Shown here piece after piece: positions 21,675-60,838 of a stretch of 64,000 nt of DNA. Source of the stretch: Marinisporobacter sp. (GTDB taxonomy: Bacteria > Bacillota > Clostridia > Peptostreptococcales > Thermotaleaceae). The notes beneath the pieces were generated by a model, which was given only the letters and a program-made list of their open reading frames with translations, had not been told where the DNA came from and made no database searches. Location: positions 496,001-560,000 of the forward strand of contig JAOARP010000047.1 of the NCBI GenBank assembly GCA_025210525.1, written 5' to 3'. How positions within the stretch are numbered: position 1 is the first letter of the stretch; every line of letters begins with the position of its first letter. The translations under genes were made by a program, and so were the position numbers.

Positions 21675-21762
21675 TTAGACGGGCCTCTGGAGAGACTCTA
21701 AAGAGCACCGAAGGGGAAAACCACTTACGTGGTGAAACTCTCAGGTAAAAGGACAGGGGATT
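21675..21762 (+). promoter_or_regulatory. Glycine riboswitch (single aptamer)
   Basis: The stretch shows the conserved glycine-aptamer boxes in order: CTCTGGAGAG (21685-21694), GCACCGAAGGGG (21705-21716), a variable hairpin CCAC/GTGG (21721-21732), ACTCTCAGGTAAAAGGACAG (21737-21756) and the closing GGGG. It corresponds to the second aptamer of tandem glycine riboswitches; the preceding 60 bases do not show a complete first aptamer, so it is a singlet type, perhaps with a ghost partner. It is followed by hairpins at 21789-21805 and 21844-21873 and then an ACT-domain gene, on the same strand. Confidence 0.92.
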
Positions 21763-21843
21763 ATTGATTACGAAAGATAATTTATTTTTTGTGATTCCAT
21801 CACAAGAATACAATATACTCTTTCATTTATAATCTTGCTTTCC

Positions 21844-50643: not shown

Positions 50644-50664
50644 TAATAAAAATTAAATATCATT

Positions 50665-50768
50665 CTTATCCTGAGTGGTGGAGGGATCTGGCCCTTTGAA
50701 GCCCGGCAACCAGCATAATTATATGCATTGGTGCTAATTCCAGCGGTATATTACCGACAGATGAGAGC
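50665..50768 (+). promoter_or_regulatory. SAM-I riboswitch (S-box)
   Basis: The stretch shows the conserved S-box order: CTTATC (50665), GGTGGAGGGATCTGGCCCT, GAAGCCCGGCAACC (50698-50711), a variable hairpin, GGTGCTAATTCC (50730-50741), and GACAGATGAGAG (50756-50767). It is on the same strand as, and 85 bases upstream of, the metF start. High SAM would favour the terminator at 50780-50810 and switch the operon off. Confidence 0.97.
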
Positions 50769-51744: not shown

Positions 51745-52428
51745 ATGAAACTTGATGAAAAGGAAATTCTACGTTATCTAGGATATAACCACCAAAAGAT
51801 TGATCTACAAACAAATAATCTCATAAAAGAATGTATAAAAGAAATAAAAGAATTGATCCATAAACACTATATCTATCAAATTTTTGATATTGAAAAAAAG
51901 TATCATCATATTCATTTAAAAAATACAAAACTATTCCTTGAAGGAATAGATATTTATAATCATTTATTCCACTCAGAAAAATGTGCAATCCTTGCTGTAA
52001 CCCTAGGAAACATTATTGATAAAAGGATAAAGTACTATAGCAAAATAAATTTAACAAAAAGCTTAATCTTTGATGCCTGCGCTACAACTGCAATAGAAGC
52101 TATGGCTGATAATACAGAAGAAGAAATTATAACTTATGCAAAACAAAATAACTATCACACAACTTATCGGTATAGCCCTGGCTATGGAGATTTTCCTCTT
52201 TCTATTCAGCCAGAAATTTTAAAAATTTTAGATACAGAACGTAAAATTGGACTTACAGTAACGCAAGATTTTCTTTTACTTCCTAGAAAATCTATTACTG
52301 CAATCATAGGATTTCAAAAGGATCCAGTTTCTTTAAATTCAAAGAACTGTAAAACTTGTAACCTTTATGAAACTTGTACTTATAAGAAAGAAGGGAATCA
52401 TTGTGGATATAAAAAAATTAACGAATAA
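51745..52428 (+). CDS. Stand-alone MetH reactivation (activation) domain protein
   Basis: The 227-residue protein matches the C-terminal activation domain of cobalamin-dependent methionine synthase, which binds SAM and remethylates oxidised cobalamin. It has AVTLGNIIDKRI, DACATTAIEAMAD and RYSPGYGDFPL (about 142-152, the RxxPGYG SAM-binding motif), then LGLTxTxxxxLxPxKSxxAxIGF-like LTVTQDFLLLPRKSITAIIGF. The tail carries CKTCNLYETC, then GNHCG (Cys at about 204, 207, 213 and 222), a possible metal or iron-sulfur site absent from E. coli MetH. The next gene, MetH, begins inside this one and lacks this domain. Confidence 0.88.
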   Translation: MKLDEKEILRYLGYNHQKIDLQTNNLIKECIKEIKELIHKHYIYQIFDIEKKYHHIHLKNTKLFLEGIDIYNHLFHSEKCAILAVTLGNIIDKRIKYYSKINLTKSLIFDACATTAIEAMADNTEEEIITYAKQNNYHTTYRYSPGYGDFPLSIQPEILKILDTERKIGLTVTQDFLLLPRKSITAIIGFQKDPVSLNSKNCKTCNLYETCTYKKEGNHCGYKKINE

Positions 52429-54769
52429 ACAATTCATTTTTTTTGATGGAGCTATGGGAACCATGCTTCAAGCTGCTGGTCTTGGTGTTGGAGAATATCT
52501 TGAAAGCTATAACATCCTTCACCCTAACATTCTGTATGATATTCATAAAAGATATATTGATGCAGGTGCAGATATTATTACTACAAACACCTTTGGTGCC
52601 AATAGCTATAAGCTAAAAAATTCTCCCTACAGTGTAGGAGATATTATCAGTAGTGCTGTAACTATTGCTAAGAAAGCTGCTGGCTCTAAGCTAGTAGCAC
52701 TTGATATAGGTCCAATTGGTCAGCTTTTAGCACCTATGGGAACCCTTAGCTTTGATGAGGCATATGATCTATTTAAGGAACAAATAATCATTGGCGAAAA
52801 GAGTGGGGCAGATATTATTTTATTTGAAACATTATCTGATTTATATGAAGCGAAAGCTGCTATCCTTGCTGCCAAGGAAAATAGCTCTCTCCCTATATTT
52901 TGCACTATGACTTTCCAACAAAGTGGTAGAACCTTGACAGGAACAGACCCCGAAACTATGGTTCATGTCCTTGAAGGACTAGGGGTAGATGCACTAGGAA
53001 TCAATTGTTCCTTAGGCCCTAAGGAAATAAAACCCCTTGTAGAAAAGATTTTAAAGGTCGCTAGTATTCCTGTAATCATTCAACCAAATGCAGGACTACC
53101 AAAGCTTGTGGAAGGTGAAACAATATTCGATCTAACTCCTGATGCTTTCGCAACAGAAATTCAAAAGCTATCAAAGCTTGGTGTATCTATTATAGGCGGC
53201 TGTTGTGGCACAACACCTTCATTTATCAAAGTAGTAAAAGATTCACTTAAAAATTCATCTCCTACAAAAATCAATCCTATAAAAGAAACAACTGTATGTT
53301 CTTCCACTAAAACAGTAATCATGGGAGACGGTATAAAAATCATTGGAGAGAGAATCAATCCTACTGGTAAAAAGAAACTGAAAGCTGCATTAAAAGAAAA
53401 TGATTTGGACTACATATTAGCAGAAGCCATCAAGCAAAAAGAAGCAGGAGCAGATCTATTAGATATCAATATTGGCCTTCCTGAAATCAATGAAGTAAAA
53501 ATCATGACAAAGATCATAAGGGAAATACAAAGCATTATGGACCTTCCCCTTCAAATTGATAGTTCAAATCCTAAGGTCATTGAAGCTGGAGTAAGATTTT
53601 ATAATGGAAAACCAATCATCAATTCTGTAAATGGCAAAAAAGAAAGTATGGAAGCTATTTTCCCTATTGCAAAAAAATATGGTGCTTGTGTTATTGGTCT
53701 TACTTTAGATGAAAATGGCATTCCCCATACAGCAGAAGAAAGAGTAAAAATTGCAGAAAAAATCATCCATACTGCCAAATTGTACAAAATCCCTAAGGAA
53801 AATATATTGATAGACTGCTTAGTTTTAACAGCTTCTGCTCAACAAAAAGAAGTATTAGAAACATTAAAGGCTATTCAGCTTATAAAAAAAGAATTTGGCG
53901 TAAAAACAGTTTTAGGGGTAAGCAATGTATCCTTTGGTTTACCACAAAGAAAGCTACTCACAAGGACATTTTTAGCCATGAGTCTTTCCTATGGGCTAGA
54001 CGCTCCTATTATAGACCCATTAATAGAAGATAATATATCAACCATCGACACCTTCCATGTTCTTACAAACCATGATGTAGGTTCAGAAAAATATACAAAT
54101 CTTTATAGAAAAGAAATAAAAAAAGAAGTCCAAGCGATCCAAGTAGAAAAAAGCTTAAAAGAAATCATCATAGACGGCATGAAGGATGAAGCAACCCTTA
54201 AAACAAAAGAGCTCTTGAATACTTTAGATCCTTTAAGCATCGTAAATAACTATTTAATTCCAGCCCTAGATACAGTAGGCGATCATTTTGAAAAGGAAAT
54301 CATCTTCCTTCCTCAATTGATTCGCTCTGCTGAAACTGTAAAAGCTTCCTTTGAAGTCATTAAAGAACACTTGCTAAATACAGGAGCTGCCCATATTTCA
54401 AAGGGAAAAATCATATTAGCTACAGTAAAAGGAGACATTCATGACATTGGTAAAAATATTGTAAAAGTCCTTTTAGAAAACTATGGTTTTCATGTACTAG
54501 ATCTAGGAAAGGATGTTCCTATAGAAACAGTTGTAAACACTGCAAAAGAGCATAACATCAAGCTAATAGGTCTCAGTGCCCTTATGACTACCACTGTTAG
54601 AAATATGGAAAAAACTATCCAAGCTATCAGAAAAAATAATATTGACTGTAAAATATTCGTAGGGGGTGCTGTCCTTACAAAGGAATATGCAGATATAATC
54701 GGTGCTGATTATTATTGCAAGGATGCTAGAGAATCTGTATTCGTTGCTCAAAAGATATTTGATATTTAA
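52403..54769 (+). CDS. metH: Cobalamin-dependent methionine synthase without reactivation domain
   Basis: Start taken as GTG 52403 (788 residues), with AAGGGA seven bases upstream; it overlaps the previous gene by 26 bases. Domains in order: homocysteine-binding (1-290, FFDGAMGTMLQ, NTFGANSYK, zinc ligands in INCSLGP and GGCCGTTP), pterin-binding (about 320-560, IIGERINPTGKKKLK, ADLLDINIG), helical B12 cap (about 575-650, LIPALDTVGDHFEKEIIFLPQL) and B12-binding with DIHDIG (about 671-676) donating the cobalt-binding His. It transfers the methyl group of methyl-THF to homocysteine. The reactivation domain is a separate gene upstream. Confidence 0.94.
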   Translation: MDIKKLTNKQFIFFDGAMGTMLQAAGLGVGEYLESYNILHPNILYDIHKRYIDAGADIITTNTFGANSYKLKNSPYSVGDIISSAVTIAKKAAGSKLVALDIGPIGQLLAPMGTLSFDEAYDLFKEQIIIGEKSGADIILFETLSDLYEAKAAILAAKENSSLPIFCTMTFQQSGRTLTGTDPETMVHVLEGLGVDALGINCSLGPKEIKPLVEKILKVASIPVIIQPNAGLPKLVEGETIFDLTPDAFATEIQKLSKLGVSIIGGCCGTTPSFIKVVKDSLKNSSPTKINPIKETTVCSSTKTVIMGDGIKIIGERINPTGKKKLKAALKENDLDYILAEAIKQKEAGADLLDINIGLPEINEVKIMTKIIREIQSIMDLPLQIDSSNPKVIEAGVRFYNGKPIINSVNGKKESMEAIFPIAKKYGACVIGLTLDENGIPHTAEERVKIAEKIIHTAKLYKIPKENILIDCLVLTASAQQKEVLETLKAIQLIKKEFGVKTVLGVSNVSFGLPQRKLLTRTFLAMSLSYGLDAPIIDPLIEDNISTIDTFHVLTNHDVGSEKYTNLYRKEIKKEVQAIQVEKSLKEIIIDGMKDEATLKTKELLNTLDPLSIVNNYLIPALDTVGDHFEKEIIFLPQLIRSAETVKASFEVIKEHLLNTGAAHISKGKIILATVKGDIHDIGKNIVKVLLENYGFHVLDLGKDVPIETVVNTAKEHNIKLIGLSALMTTTVRNMEKTIQAIRKNNIDCKIFVGGAVLTKEYADIIGADYYCKDARESVFVAQKIFDI

Positions 54770-54776
54770 AAAAAAC

Positions 54777-55690: not shown

Positions 55691-55803
55691 TGAGCCCACG
55701 GAAGATTAAAGTATAAAATTTATACAAAAAATACCTTGCTGAGTATACGCTCGCAAGGCATGGAAATTTCTTTATACTCAACTGTCTCTGTCCCAAAGGC
55801 TCA
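55691..55803 (-). promoter_or_regulatory. Structured panC leader with predicted pseudoknot
   Basis: Closed by TGAGCC / GGCTCA (55803-55798 with 55696-55691) and a GGA/TCC pair set, the element contains a nine-pair hairpin (55761-55753 with 55739-55731, one G-U) whose 13-base loop includes TATACTCA. That loop sequence pairs perfectly over eight bases with TGAGTATA (55780-55773), giving an H-type pseudoknot. A third hairpin GTATAA / TTATAC is at 55711-55725. The 3' end of the closing stem is 24 bases from the panC start. I do not recognise it as a known riboswitch. Confidence 0.55.
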
Positions 55804-56050
55804 AAGCAGATCTATTGAATTTTATTTTCATAATTTTAAAATGGTATAGTTCTTGCGATACTATCCAGTTTCATTTTAGCACAAGGCTCTTATTCATACA
55901 ATAAAGACTATAATTTTATTTTATAGAAATTTTTCTTCATTAGCAACTTAAAACATTTACAATACTATGTATTTCTGCATAATACTACAAGACATATTGT
56001 TACTTTTTAAAGTAGATACTATTAACAAGCTATAAAAAGAGGTGAGATTA
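55804..56050. other. Intergenic AT-rich stretch between panC leader and SASP gene
   Basis: A bulged hairpin GGATAGT / ACTATACC (55842-55866, minus strand) is visible. A loose sigma-G-like pair (TGTATT near 55970 and CATATTG near 55993) is possible ahead of the spore-protein gene but spacing is about 19 bases. No reading frame. Confidence 0.3.
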
Positions 56051-59405: not shown

Positions 59406-60311
59406 ATGAAAAAAATATTATGTATACTAACTCTATGTACTTTATTATTCTCTGGTTGTACTTCTCCACAGCAAAGACCAAATCCAGTACCTGAAAATGA
59501 TACGTATCGAAATGAAGTACCAGAAGACAAAATGTATCAAAGTGAAGTTCCACAAAAGAAAATGTATGAAAATGACATGCGCAAAGATGAACTACGTGAA
59601 AAGGAAATGATTGAAGACAATAAACCGATGACTTCATCTATTTTCGAGAAAGCTGATGTAGAAAAGGTTCAAATTACAAAGAACAATGCATCTTGTCGTT
59701 CAGGAAAAAGCGCCAATGCTCCTGAAATCAAAAAGCTCCCTAAAGGAAATGTTTATGACGTTGTTGGACAACTTGGAAATCAATATGTAGTACAGACAGA
59801 AGATGGAAAAGTTGGTTGCGTAAATCCTGCTGATTGTGAGCCACAGGTAGAAGGGCCTAAAACAACTACACCATCAGATCAACCTAATCAAACTGCAACT
59901 GATAAACAAGAGGAAAATACCTCAAGACTTACTACTGATGAACAAGAAATGCTTAAACTTGTCAATGGAGAGAGAACAAAGAACGGCTTAAAACCACTAA
60001 CACTTGATATTTCTATCAACAATGTAGCCAGACTAAAATCTCAAGATATGATTGATAATAATTATTTTAGTCACAACTCTCCTACTTACGGTAGTCCTTT
60101 TGATATGTTAAAACAATTTGGTATCAAATATCTTACTGCCGGTGAAAATATAGCAGGAAACCCTTCTGTTCAAAGTGCTCATACATCTCTTATGAATTCA
60201 GAAGGACATCGAAAAAATATTTTAAATCCTAAATTTACTCATATTGGAATTGGTATAAAAGACGGGGGTAAATATGGAAAGATGTATACACAAATGTTTG
60301 TCGGTAGATAA
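59406..60311 (+). CDS. CAP-domain (YkwD-like) lipoprotein with SH3-like domain
   Basis: Start set at ATG 59406, with GAGGTGAT before it, giving 301 residues; a frame to 59343 adds 21 residues with no site. Signal peptide KKILCILTLCTLLFSGC ends in a lipobox. A short charged repeat region (VPEDKMYQSEVPQKKMYEND) follows, then an SH3b-like domain (about 85-150; KNNASCRSGKSANAPEIKKL), a Thr/Gln linker, and a CAP/SCP domain (about 180-301) with LVNGERTKNGL, SHNSPTYGSPFDM, GENIAG and GHRKNIL. Such proteins are found on spore or cell surfaces of Firmicutes; activity unclear. Confidence 0.9.
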   Translation: MKKILCILTLCTLLFSGCTSPQQRPNPVPENDTYRNEVPEDKMYQSEVPQKKMYENDMRKDELREKEMIEDNKPMTSSIFEKADVEKVQITKNNASCRSGKSANAPEIKKLPKGNVYDVVGQLGNQYVVQTEDGKVGCVNPADCEPQVEGPKTTTPSDQPNQTATDKQEENTSRLTTDEQEMLKLVNGERTKNGLKPLTLDISINNVARLKSQDMIDNNYFSHNSPTYGSPFDMLKQFGIKYLTAGENIAGNPSVQSAHTSLMNSEGHRKNILNPKFTHIGIGIKDGGKYGKMYTQMFVGR

Positions 60312-60339
60312 AAAAAATAATCCCTCATAATTGAGAGAT
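60311..60339 (-). terminator. Terminator facing the cobalamin-riboswitch transcript
   Basis: On the minus strand ATCTCTCA and TGAGGGAT pair (one G-U) around ATTA and are followed by TATTTTTTT. On the plus strand one pair is a C-A mismatch and no T-tail follows, so it is oriented for the minus strand. It sits at the CAP gene stop codon. Confidence 0.65.
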
Positions 60340-60430
60340 CGAAAAAAAATTAAAAATTAGAGGAAAAATTTTTGAAAAATCTAACTAGACCATTTAAAAA
60401 AGATAGCAGATAGATTTTCTTCAAGAAATA

Positions 60431-60463
60431 TAATAAAACCCTGTCAGAAGACAGGGTTTATTA
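60431..60463. terminator. Terminator, possible expression platform of the cobalamin riboswitch
   Basis: AAACCCTGTC pairs perfectly with GACAGGGTTT, with flanking TAAT/ATTA extending the stem. On the minus strand it is followed by TATTATATTT; on the plus strand it can stop the CAP gene transcript. Confidence 0.75.
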
Positions 60464-60490
60464 GCTTAAAAAGTATTACAAATTCAACTA

Positions 60491-60699
60491 ATCCCTCCCC
60501 TTCCCACCGAAGGTAGTAACTTACACAATAGGCAGGTCTCCTGACTTATGATTCAACCTACTTCCTCTACCTTCCCGTTTTCACAGTGGTAATCATGAGG
60601 TTTCGTCATCATTTACAGTAGCGGGGGCTGTGACGGATTTTCACCGAGCTTCCCTATTAAACCAAAATGGCACCTAAAGCTTTTCACTTATTTACTTAT
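60491..60699 (-). promoter_or_regulatory. Cobalamin riboswitch with no downstream gene
   Basis: Reading the minus strand, the conserved boxes occur in order: GGTGCC (60673-60668), TAATAGGGAA (60659-60650), GGTGAAAATCC (60644-60634), ACAGCCCCCGCTACTGT (60630-60614), CCACTGTGAAAACGGGAAGG (60589-60570) and AGTCAGGAGACCTGCC (60546-60531). All paired regions look intact, followed by CCTTC/GAAGG. The next gene in this direction on this strand is fhs, 1.6 kb away, and the CAP gene in between is on the other strand. Confidence 0.93.
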
Positions 60700-60705
60700 G
60701 ATAAG

Positions 60706-60734
60706 ATTTTAACATTTTTATATTAAATTGTCAA
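60706..60734 (-). promoter_or_regulatory. Promoter of the cobalamin riboswitch
   Basis: On the minus strand TTGACA (60734-60729) and TAAAAT (60711-60706) are spaced by 17 bases, placing the start near 60699, just before the aptamer. Confidence 0.75.
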
Positions 60735-60797
60735 TATTAATATTTATTTCCGAATATTTTTTTTAGCAATAGAATGTTGTTTCTCGTATCAGAAAAA

Positions 60798-60838
60798 AAT
60801 AAAAATAGCTTAAAACATGATTGCTTTAAGCTATTTTT
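60798..60838 (-). terminator. Terminator of the sodium symporter gene
   Basis: Fourteen perfect pairs (60801-60814 with 60825-60838) and a T-run on the minus strand, nine bases after the stop. Confidence 0.88.

Follow-up and report, generated by a model that had tools for sequence, protein, structure and literature searches.

A gene-less cobalamin riboswitch unit conserved in Marinisporobacter and related genera: a likely adenosylcobalamin-gated small RNA predicted to pair with mutase mRNAs

Riboswitches usually act on the adjoining gene. At positions 60311-60735 of the window, by which is meant the whole 64,000-nucleotide stretch of Marinisporobacter DNA analysed here, the minus strand carries a complete transcription unit with a cobalamin riboswitch but without a gene, which raises the question of what such a switch controls. 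The answer regarded as likely is that the locus specifies an adenosylcobalamin-gated, trans-acting small RNA that would repress adenosylcobalamin mutases; all of the evidence is computational, and expression, ligand response and repression are inferred.

The unit (Table 1) opens with a promoter that matches the consensus at 11 of 12 positions, has TG before the -10 element and is the top-scoring site within 5 kb. The full-length aptamer is followed by a small hairpin, CTACCTTCGGTGGGAAGG, which probably belongs to the expression platform, and terminator 1, kept in other genera, comes right after the aptamer with a stem of 10 pairs (60459-60436) and a T-rich tail. Terminator 2, with a stem of 9 pairs (60340-60319), ends at the stop codon of the CAP gene, and overlap of the RNA with the CAP coding sequence is minimal. 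No open reading frame of 40 amino acids or more was found on the minus strand between the aptamer and this stop codon, and the fold of the terminator-to-terminator RNA is better than those of 200 of 200 shuffles (z -5.3). From a start near 60699, a short product of ≈ 270 nt and a long product of ≈ 390 nt are predicted. A separate terminator closes the sodium-dependent transporter gene upstream, so that the riboswitch unit is insulated and stands alone. A preliminary description of the window, made without database searches, had claimed a complete cobalamin riboswitch with an excellent TTGACA/TAAAAT promoter, two terminators on the same strand without a reading frame between them, a CAP lipoprotein gene as neighbor and a read-through product of about 390 nt; all of this held, the neighbor being a member of the YkwD/CAP family, and only the short product, given there as about 240 nt, had to be corrected.

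Table 1. Features of the gene-less riboswitch unit and its surroundings (positions in the window)
Feature	Position	Strand	Remark
Terminator of the upstream sodium-dependent transporter gene	60801..60838	-	separates the transporter from the riboswitch unit
Sigma-70-type promoter TTGACA-17-TAAAAT	60706..60734	-	predicted transcription start near 60699
Cobalamin riboswitch aptamer (RF00174)	60514..60692	-	full length (1-189 of 189); Rfam 110.2 bits, E 1e-26, curated threshold 31.5; 1 of 14 in source genome
CTACCTTCGGTGGGAAGG hairpin 3' of the aptamer	60496..60516	-	95% identity; found in paralogous riboswitches too
Terminator 1 (expression platform), AAACCCTGTC-TTCT-GACAGGGTTT and T-rich tail	60428..60459	-	98% identity
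Linker, terminator 1 to core	60393..60435	-	94% identical in the genus; shortened or different in other genera
Target-pairing core GGUCUAGUUAGAUUUUUCAAAAAUUUUUCCUCU	60359..60391	-	complementary to the methylmalonyl-CoA mutase large-subunit mRNA start, G000:C19 about 65300-65340
5' pairing site GGUCUAGUU	60383..60391	-	pairs with codons 7-9 (AACUAG), duplex prediction
3' pairing site UUUUUCCUC (anti-Shine-Dalgarno)	60360..60368	-	pairs with GAGGAAAAA before the start codon, duplex prediction
Terminator 2, 3' end of the read-through RNA	60311..60340	-	other genera keep a terminator with altered stem sequence
CAP/YkwD-family lipoprotein gene, convergent with the RNA	59406..60311	+	neighbor in 8 of 12 genomes, another in 4

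Several neighboring elements may be recorded in passing. The CAP lipoprotein gene contains a tandem repeat with a 30-base unit in 2.4 copies (59504-59575), and the window holds further regulatory RNAs, namely a glycine riboswitch and a pan motif (21677-21766, 55778-55867) as well as a SAM riboswitch (50663-50767).

The direction in which the switch responds can be approached through its relatives. Behind the 13 other cobalamin riboswitches of the source genome lie terminator-like hairpins, and cobT- and cbiA-like open reading frames are among the genes that could be read further downstream (all by eye). In a reporter study, all 38 functional cobalamin riboswitches repressed, 37 of the 38 with predicted terminators (PMC9600662). 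Taken together, these observations support an OFF response in the presence of ligand. A separate observation concerns a paralogous cobalamin riboswitch with a near-identical terminator, which precedes two small open reading frames of about 45-76 amino acids (L007/L021, G000:C2 about 75400-75690; L019, L020, L022 and L110). The first of these ends in ..FVSYGHFPEPPNQ.., the second matches no Pfam family, and the pair may represent a second B12-controlled puzzle, its control being inferred.

The same arrangement of promoter, aptamer, terminator 1, short core and terminator 2, without an open reading frame, is present in 12 genomes (G000-G011) from six genera of one family of anaerobic bacteria. 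In three other genomes of the source genus the whole unit is 86-92% identical, and mean pairwise identity among the four species of the genus amounts to 91% for the promoter, 91% for the aptamer, 98% for terminator 1, 94% for the linker, 89% for the core and 91% for terminator 2, compared with 43% in the sequence before the promoter and 61-67% across the short spacers. The units of the other genera (G004-G011) were found with a covariance model spanning terminator 1 to terminator 2 together with DNA searches; their terminator stems change in sequence and keep their pairing, as in terminator 1 with AAACCCTGCC..GCAGGGTTT. The CAP gene is convergent with the RNA in genera 1, 2, 3 and 5 (the eight genomes of Table 1) and is not beside it in G007, G008, G010 and G011: in G007 and G008 the RNA lies ahead of a codirectional TetR-like gene, and in G010 and G011 it converges on an HD-domain-like gene (both read by eye). 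As the neighbors differ between genera while the RNA stays, it is the RNA and not the neighbor that is conserved, and the persistence of the gene-less unit beside different neighbors speaks for a conserved riboswitch-controlled RNA rather than a lost gene, expression being inferred from sequence alone. Outside the family, covariance-model matches (G079, G109, G117, G187) were weak and had no cobalamin aptamer alongside, and a scan of the genome contigs with the core pattern gave Anaerophilus nitritogenes as the sole true match. Several of the riboswitches found with Rfam in G012, G013, G014 and G015 were inspected, and none was of the gene-less type. No known small RNA in Rfam came near threshold for the read-through RNA. 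The earlier reading of the locus as a riboswitch-controlled non-coding RNA gains support from its gene-less architecture and from the inter-terminator segment conserved in 12 genomes, whose conservation in relatives had been proposed as a check and is met in G000-G011; the lost gene, offered as the alternative, is contradicted by the recurrence of the same gene-less unit. The search for ANTAR-binding hairpins that had also been proposed gave no conserved feature, and the proposed search for paired targets, of which none had been named, now yields predicted targets in trans.

Between the two terminators the read-through RNA contains a core with the pattern 5'-GGUCUAGUU..UUUUUCA.AAAUUUUUCCUCU; the element common to the genera is GGUCUAGUU(n)UUUUUCAnAAAUUUUUCCUCU, with UUUCCU as its most constant part. 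In the predicted fold of the RNA of G001, a genome with the unit, the 3' pairing site is mostly single-stranded, with UUCCUC left free, and most of GGUCUAG is taken up in a hairpin. The pairing element AAGUUUUUCCUC is present twice in G004 (L107, G004:C13 90191-90333), which might point to two target-binding sites, a possibility inferred from the sequence only.

The core is complementary to the region from the Shine-Dalgarno sequence to about codon 10 of the methylmalonyl-CoA mutase large-subunit mRNA in all twelve carrier genomes. In genus 1 the predicted duplex consists of three blocks, with UUUUUCCUC on the Shine-Dalgarno sequence, UUUUUCAAA on codons 2-5 and CUAGUU on codons 7-9. Since the pairing covers the Shine-Dalgarno sequence and the start codon, translational repression is the natural prediction. 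The mechanism proposed on this basis would operate as follows. With enough adenosylcobalamin, transcription would stop at terminator 1 and leave only an inert leader, the short product; when adenosylcobalamin is scarce, read-through to terminator 2 would yield the long RNA, whose core would pair with the Shine-Dalgarno sequence and first codons of the large-subunit mRNA and block its translation. In several genera the mRNAs of the mutase small subunit, lysine 5,6-aminomutase alpha, ornithine 4,5-aminomutase S and glutamate mutase S may be blocked as well. The scarce cofactor would be saved because its binding enzymes are no longer produced, methionine synthase being mostly spared.

For a wider survey of targets, proteins with a B12-binding domain in six genomes were selected as test loci because the switch senses B12, and each of the 513 open-reading-frame starts at these loci was scored by duplex energy against the core from the same genome. 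The highest-ranking genes are lead genes of adenosylcobalamin mutases (names from NCBIfam and Pfam), comprising methylmalonyl-CoA mutase large and small subunits, lysine 5,6-aminomutase alpha, D-ornithine aminomutase alpha/S and methylaspartate (glutamate) mutase S. Such genes, 26 in all, occupy ranks 1-8 of 56-144 start regions per genome, with a mean duplex energy of -25.6 kcal/mol against -16.8 kcal/mol for 50 controls with strong Shine-Dalgarno sequences. The difference of -8.75 kcal/mol was reached by none of 100 full shuffles of the core and none of 100 shuffles that kept its anti-Shine-Dalgarno part, from which it lies 12 and 9 SD away, respectively. When the intramolecular folding of both partners was included, targets and controls still separated (p 1e-13), and the large subunit ranked 1-3 in six of six genomes. 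When the 42 ortholog groups that occur in four or more genomes are ranked, either measure gives the first four places to mutase large subunit, mutase small subunit, OraS and KamD, which are all the mutase lead genes that meet this limit; the chance of picking these four is 1 in 111,930. Furthermore, CTAG occurs early in the gene in 14 of 359 sampled genes, compared with six of six lysine aminomutase and four of six mutase large-subunit starts. Apart from the large subunit, the candidate targets, namely the mutase small subunit and the lead genes of lysine 5,6-aminomutase, ornithine aminomutase and glutamate mutase, are weaker ones.

The reach of this ranking is set by its design. It compares the selected loci with a 400-kb background sample and not with a whole genome; the random background of 359 evenly spaced genes was drawn from one genome (G001); the exact groups of target genes received their names only once a first ranking existed, the loci having been picked beforehand by their B12-binding domain; and duplex energies overpredict targets. 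Against the G001 background no gene beat the mutase large or small subunit, two beat lysine aminomutase and seven beat ornithine aminomutase S; with intramolecular structure, 53 and 66 of the 359 genes match the lysine and ornithine aminomutases, which weaken in genus 1 when folding is counted. Lysine aminomutase is not a predicted target in genera g4 and g6. Simple patterns were less useful: neither AGAGGAAA plus ATG, compared genome-wide with a reversed control, nor a 21-nt complement with three mismatches, searched genome-wide, gave a clear enrichment or excess, and the start regions became informative only when full duplexes were scored. In G015 the mutase start is competent for pairing, yet no such RNA was found.

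Specificity can also be judged from the genes that do not pair. CoA-transferase, MeaB and carboxylase, neighbors in the mutase operon, have background scores and are not predicted targets, and the epimerase of the operon is intermediate by duplex energy only. In start-region scoring KamE lies at background and MtaC-type corrinoid proteins at or near it, OraE is mixed, and the scores of a B12-binding radical SAM protein are high in two genomes but low elsewhere. MetH is weak except in G005, though the start used for the MetH of the window is probably wrong. Most other B12 proteins, such as MetH and the corrinoid proteins of methyltransferases, are not predicted targets. The MetH gene, an 810-codon open frame recovered in the B12-binding-domain search, lies at 52400-54770, a few kb from the RNA, and is not a predicted target; a MetH-like frame is near the RNA in G009 and G002 too. 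Two further starts in G002 may be listed separately. A corrinoid activation protein-like gene (by eye; L147, 2912-4729, minus strand) tops the start regions of the loci in this genome at -28.2 and is a possible B12-related target, and a glyoxalase/epimerase-like gene 12 kb from the RNA (L194, G002:C1 about 820769) has a duplex of -28.5, among the strongest in G002, and could be a species-specific one.

Matched differences between genera are seen in the RNA and the large-subunit leader. In G004 an A-U pair is replaced by G-C (RNA AGUUUUUCCUC with mRNA GAGGAAAAACU), G010 and G011 show a UUC/GAA change (RNA AUUCUUUCCUC with mRNA GAGGAAAAAGAAU), G005 and G009 share a block of 12 bp (RNA GUCUAGUUUUUC with mRNA GAAAAACUAGAC), and G007 and G008 have a CAAACAU/AUGUUUG block. 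The matching of each genus RNA with its cognate target is among the best 6 of 720 permutations, and mutase leaders from genomes without a detected RNA pair less well (p 8e-5). RNA and leader thus appear to change together between genera, an inference for which the covariation support is only moderate because non-cognate pairs score well too.

Several other readings have to be weighed against this one. The RNA could have a local role, as antisense or terminator for the CAP gene, with the mutase complementarity a by-product of its anti-Shine-Dalgarno sequence. The convergent CAP gene in eight of 12 genomes and the position of terminator 2 at its stop codon speak for such a role; however, four genomes keep the RNA beside a different neighbor, RNA and CAP coding sequence hardly overlap, and the shuffles that retain the anti-Shine-Dalgarno part fail to reproduce the preference for mutases, so that this reading is unlikely. 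Even less can be said for a decoy that binds a protein, as the EutV-titrating Rli55 does, or titrates another RNA. The plan of B12 riboswitch, terminator and extra RNA is the same as in Rli55 (PMC8079631), but the read-through RNA has no conserved ANTAR-type pair of hexaloop hairpins: paired hairpins with AxxGxx hexaloops were absent from five of eight species, and G001, G005 and G009 gave isolated matches without a conserved pair. A decaying remnant, i.e., a riboswitch that lost its gene, would account for the absence of a gene behind it but is practically ruled out: within the genus, the promoter, the core and the two terminators equal or nearly equal the aptamer in conservation, and six genera share the plan. 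Two more candidates were rejected. A small peptide product has no open reading frame to encode it, and the stretch between the terminators tolerates indels that are not multiples of three; for an AspocR-type antisense RNA to a regulator, the RNA ends at the CAP stop codon, and the neighbor is not conserved in genera g4 and g6.

The rival that remains possible accepts a trans-acting small RNA and holds that methylmalonyl-CoA mutase is its sole real target, the aminomutases being false predictions. In its favor, the large subunit is supported in 12 of 12 genomes and by the accessibility-aware ranking in six, and the aminomutases weaken in some genera. Against it stand the third and fourth places of OraS and KamD among the 42 ortholog groups by the folding-aware measure, and the presence of CTAGAC in KamD in all six genomes examined, compared with the rarity of CTAG in the sampled start regions. 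A small RNA acting on several adenosylcobalamin mutases remains the preferred reading.

Known systems provide precedents for parts of this arrangement. In Rli55 of Listeria and the EutV-binding RNA of Enterococcus, as at the present locus, a B12 riboswitch and terminator gate a stand-alone non-coding RNA; the full-length RNA is made without B12, Rli55 sequesters EutV, and production of B12-dependent enzymes is thereby confined to conditions with B12 (PMC8079631). In contrast to this sequestration of an ANTAR protein, base pairing with several mRNAs is predicted here. AspocR (Rli39) of Listeria is likewise terminated by a B12 riboswitch and read through without B12, and a B12-using pathway is repressed (PMC8079631), but it is a 1,400-nt antisense RNA to the adjacent regulator pocR, whereas the much shorter RNA described here is predicted to pair imperfectly with unlinked mRNAs and would target the enzymes directly. 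Pairing in trans of a riboswitch-derived RNA with an mRNA is known from the Listeria SAM riboswitches SreA and SreB (PMC8079631). SreA, however, arises when the leader of an ordinary operon is terminated, and it works in the presence of ligand, while in the present case the read-through product would act at low ligand with no operon attached. RyhB-type small RNAs are made in cofactor shortage and pair with the start regions of cofactor-using enzymes, and RyhB is controlled by the Fur protein. The likeness to RyhB lies in a complementarity to start regions of cofactor-using enzymes that is above background and conserved, induction and repression being inferred; the difference is that the present RNA carries its own cofactor sensor, and a sequence relation is not expected. 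The known B12-riboswitch-controlled RNAs that are described in a review have one antisense partner or titrate a protein (PMC8079631), and a literature search returned, among the papers it covered, no report of an RNA of the kind described here.

A bolder reading, toward which the evidence tips by a small margin, is that one RNA combines cofactor sensor and regulon-wide effector in an RNA-only B12-sparing regulon spanning at least six genera. The pairing predictions are specific enough for testing with reporters and compensatory mutations, and gene-less riboswitches deserve a search for targets in trans. If true, a ligand sensor would have been turned into the controller of a regulon without any protein, and these bacteria would possess a B12 counterpart to the iron sparing by RyhB.
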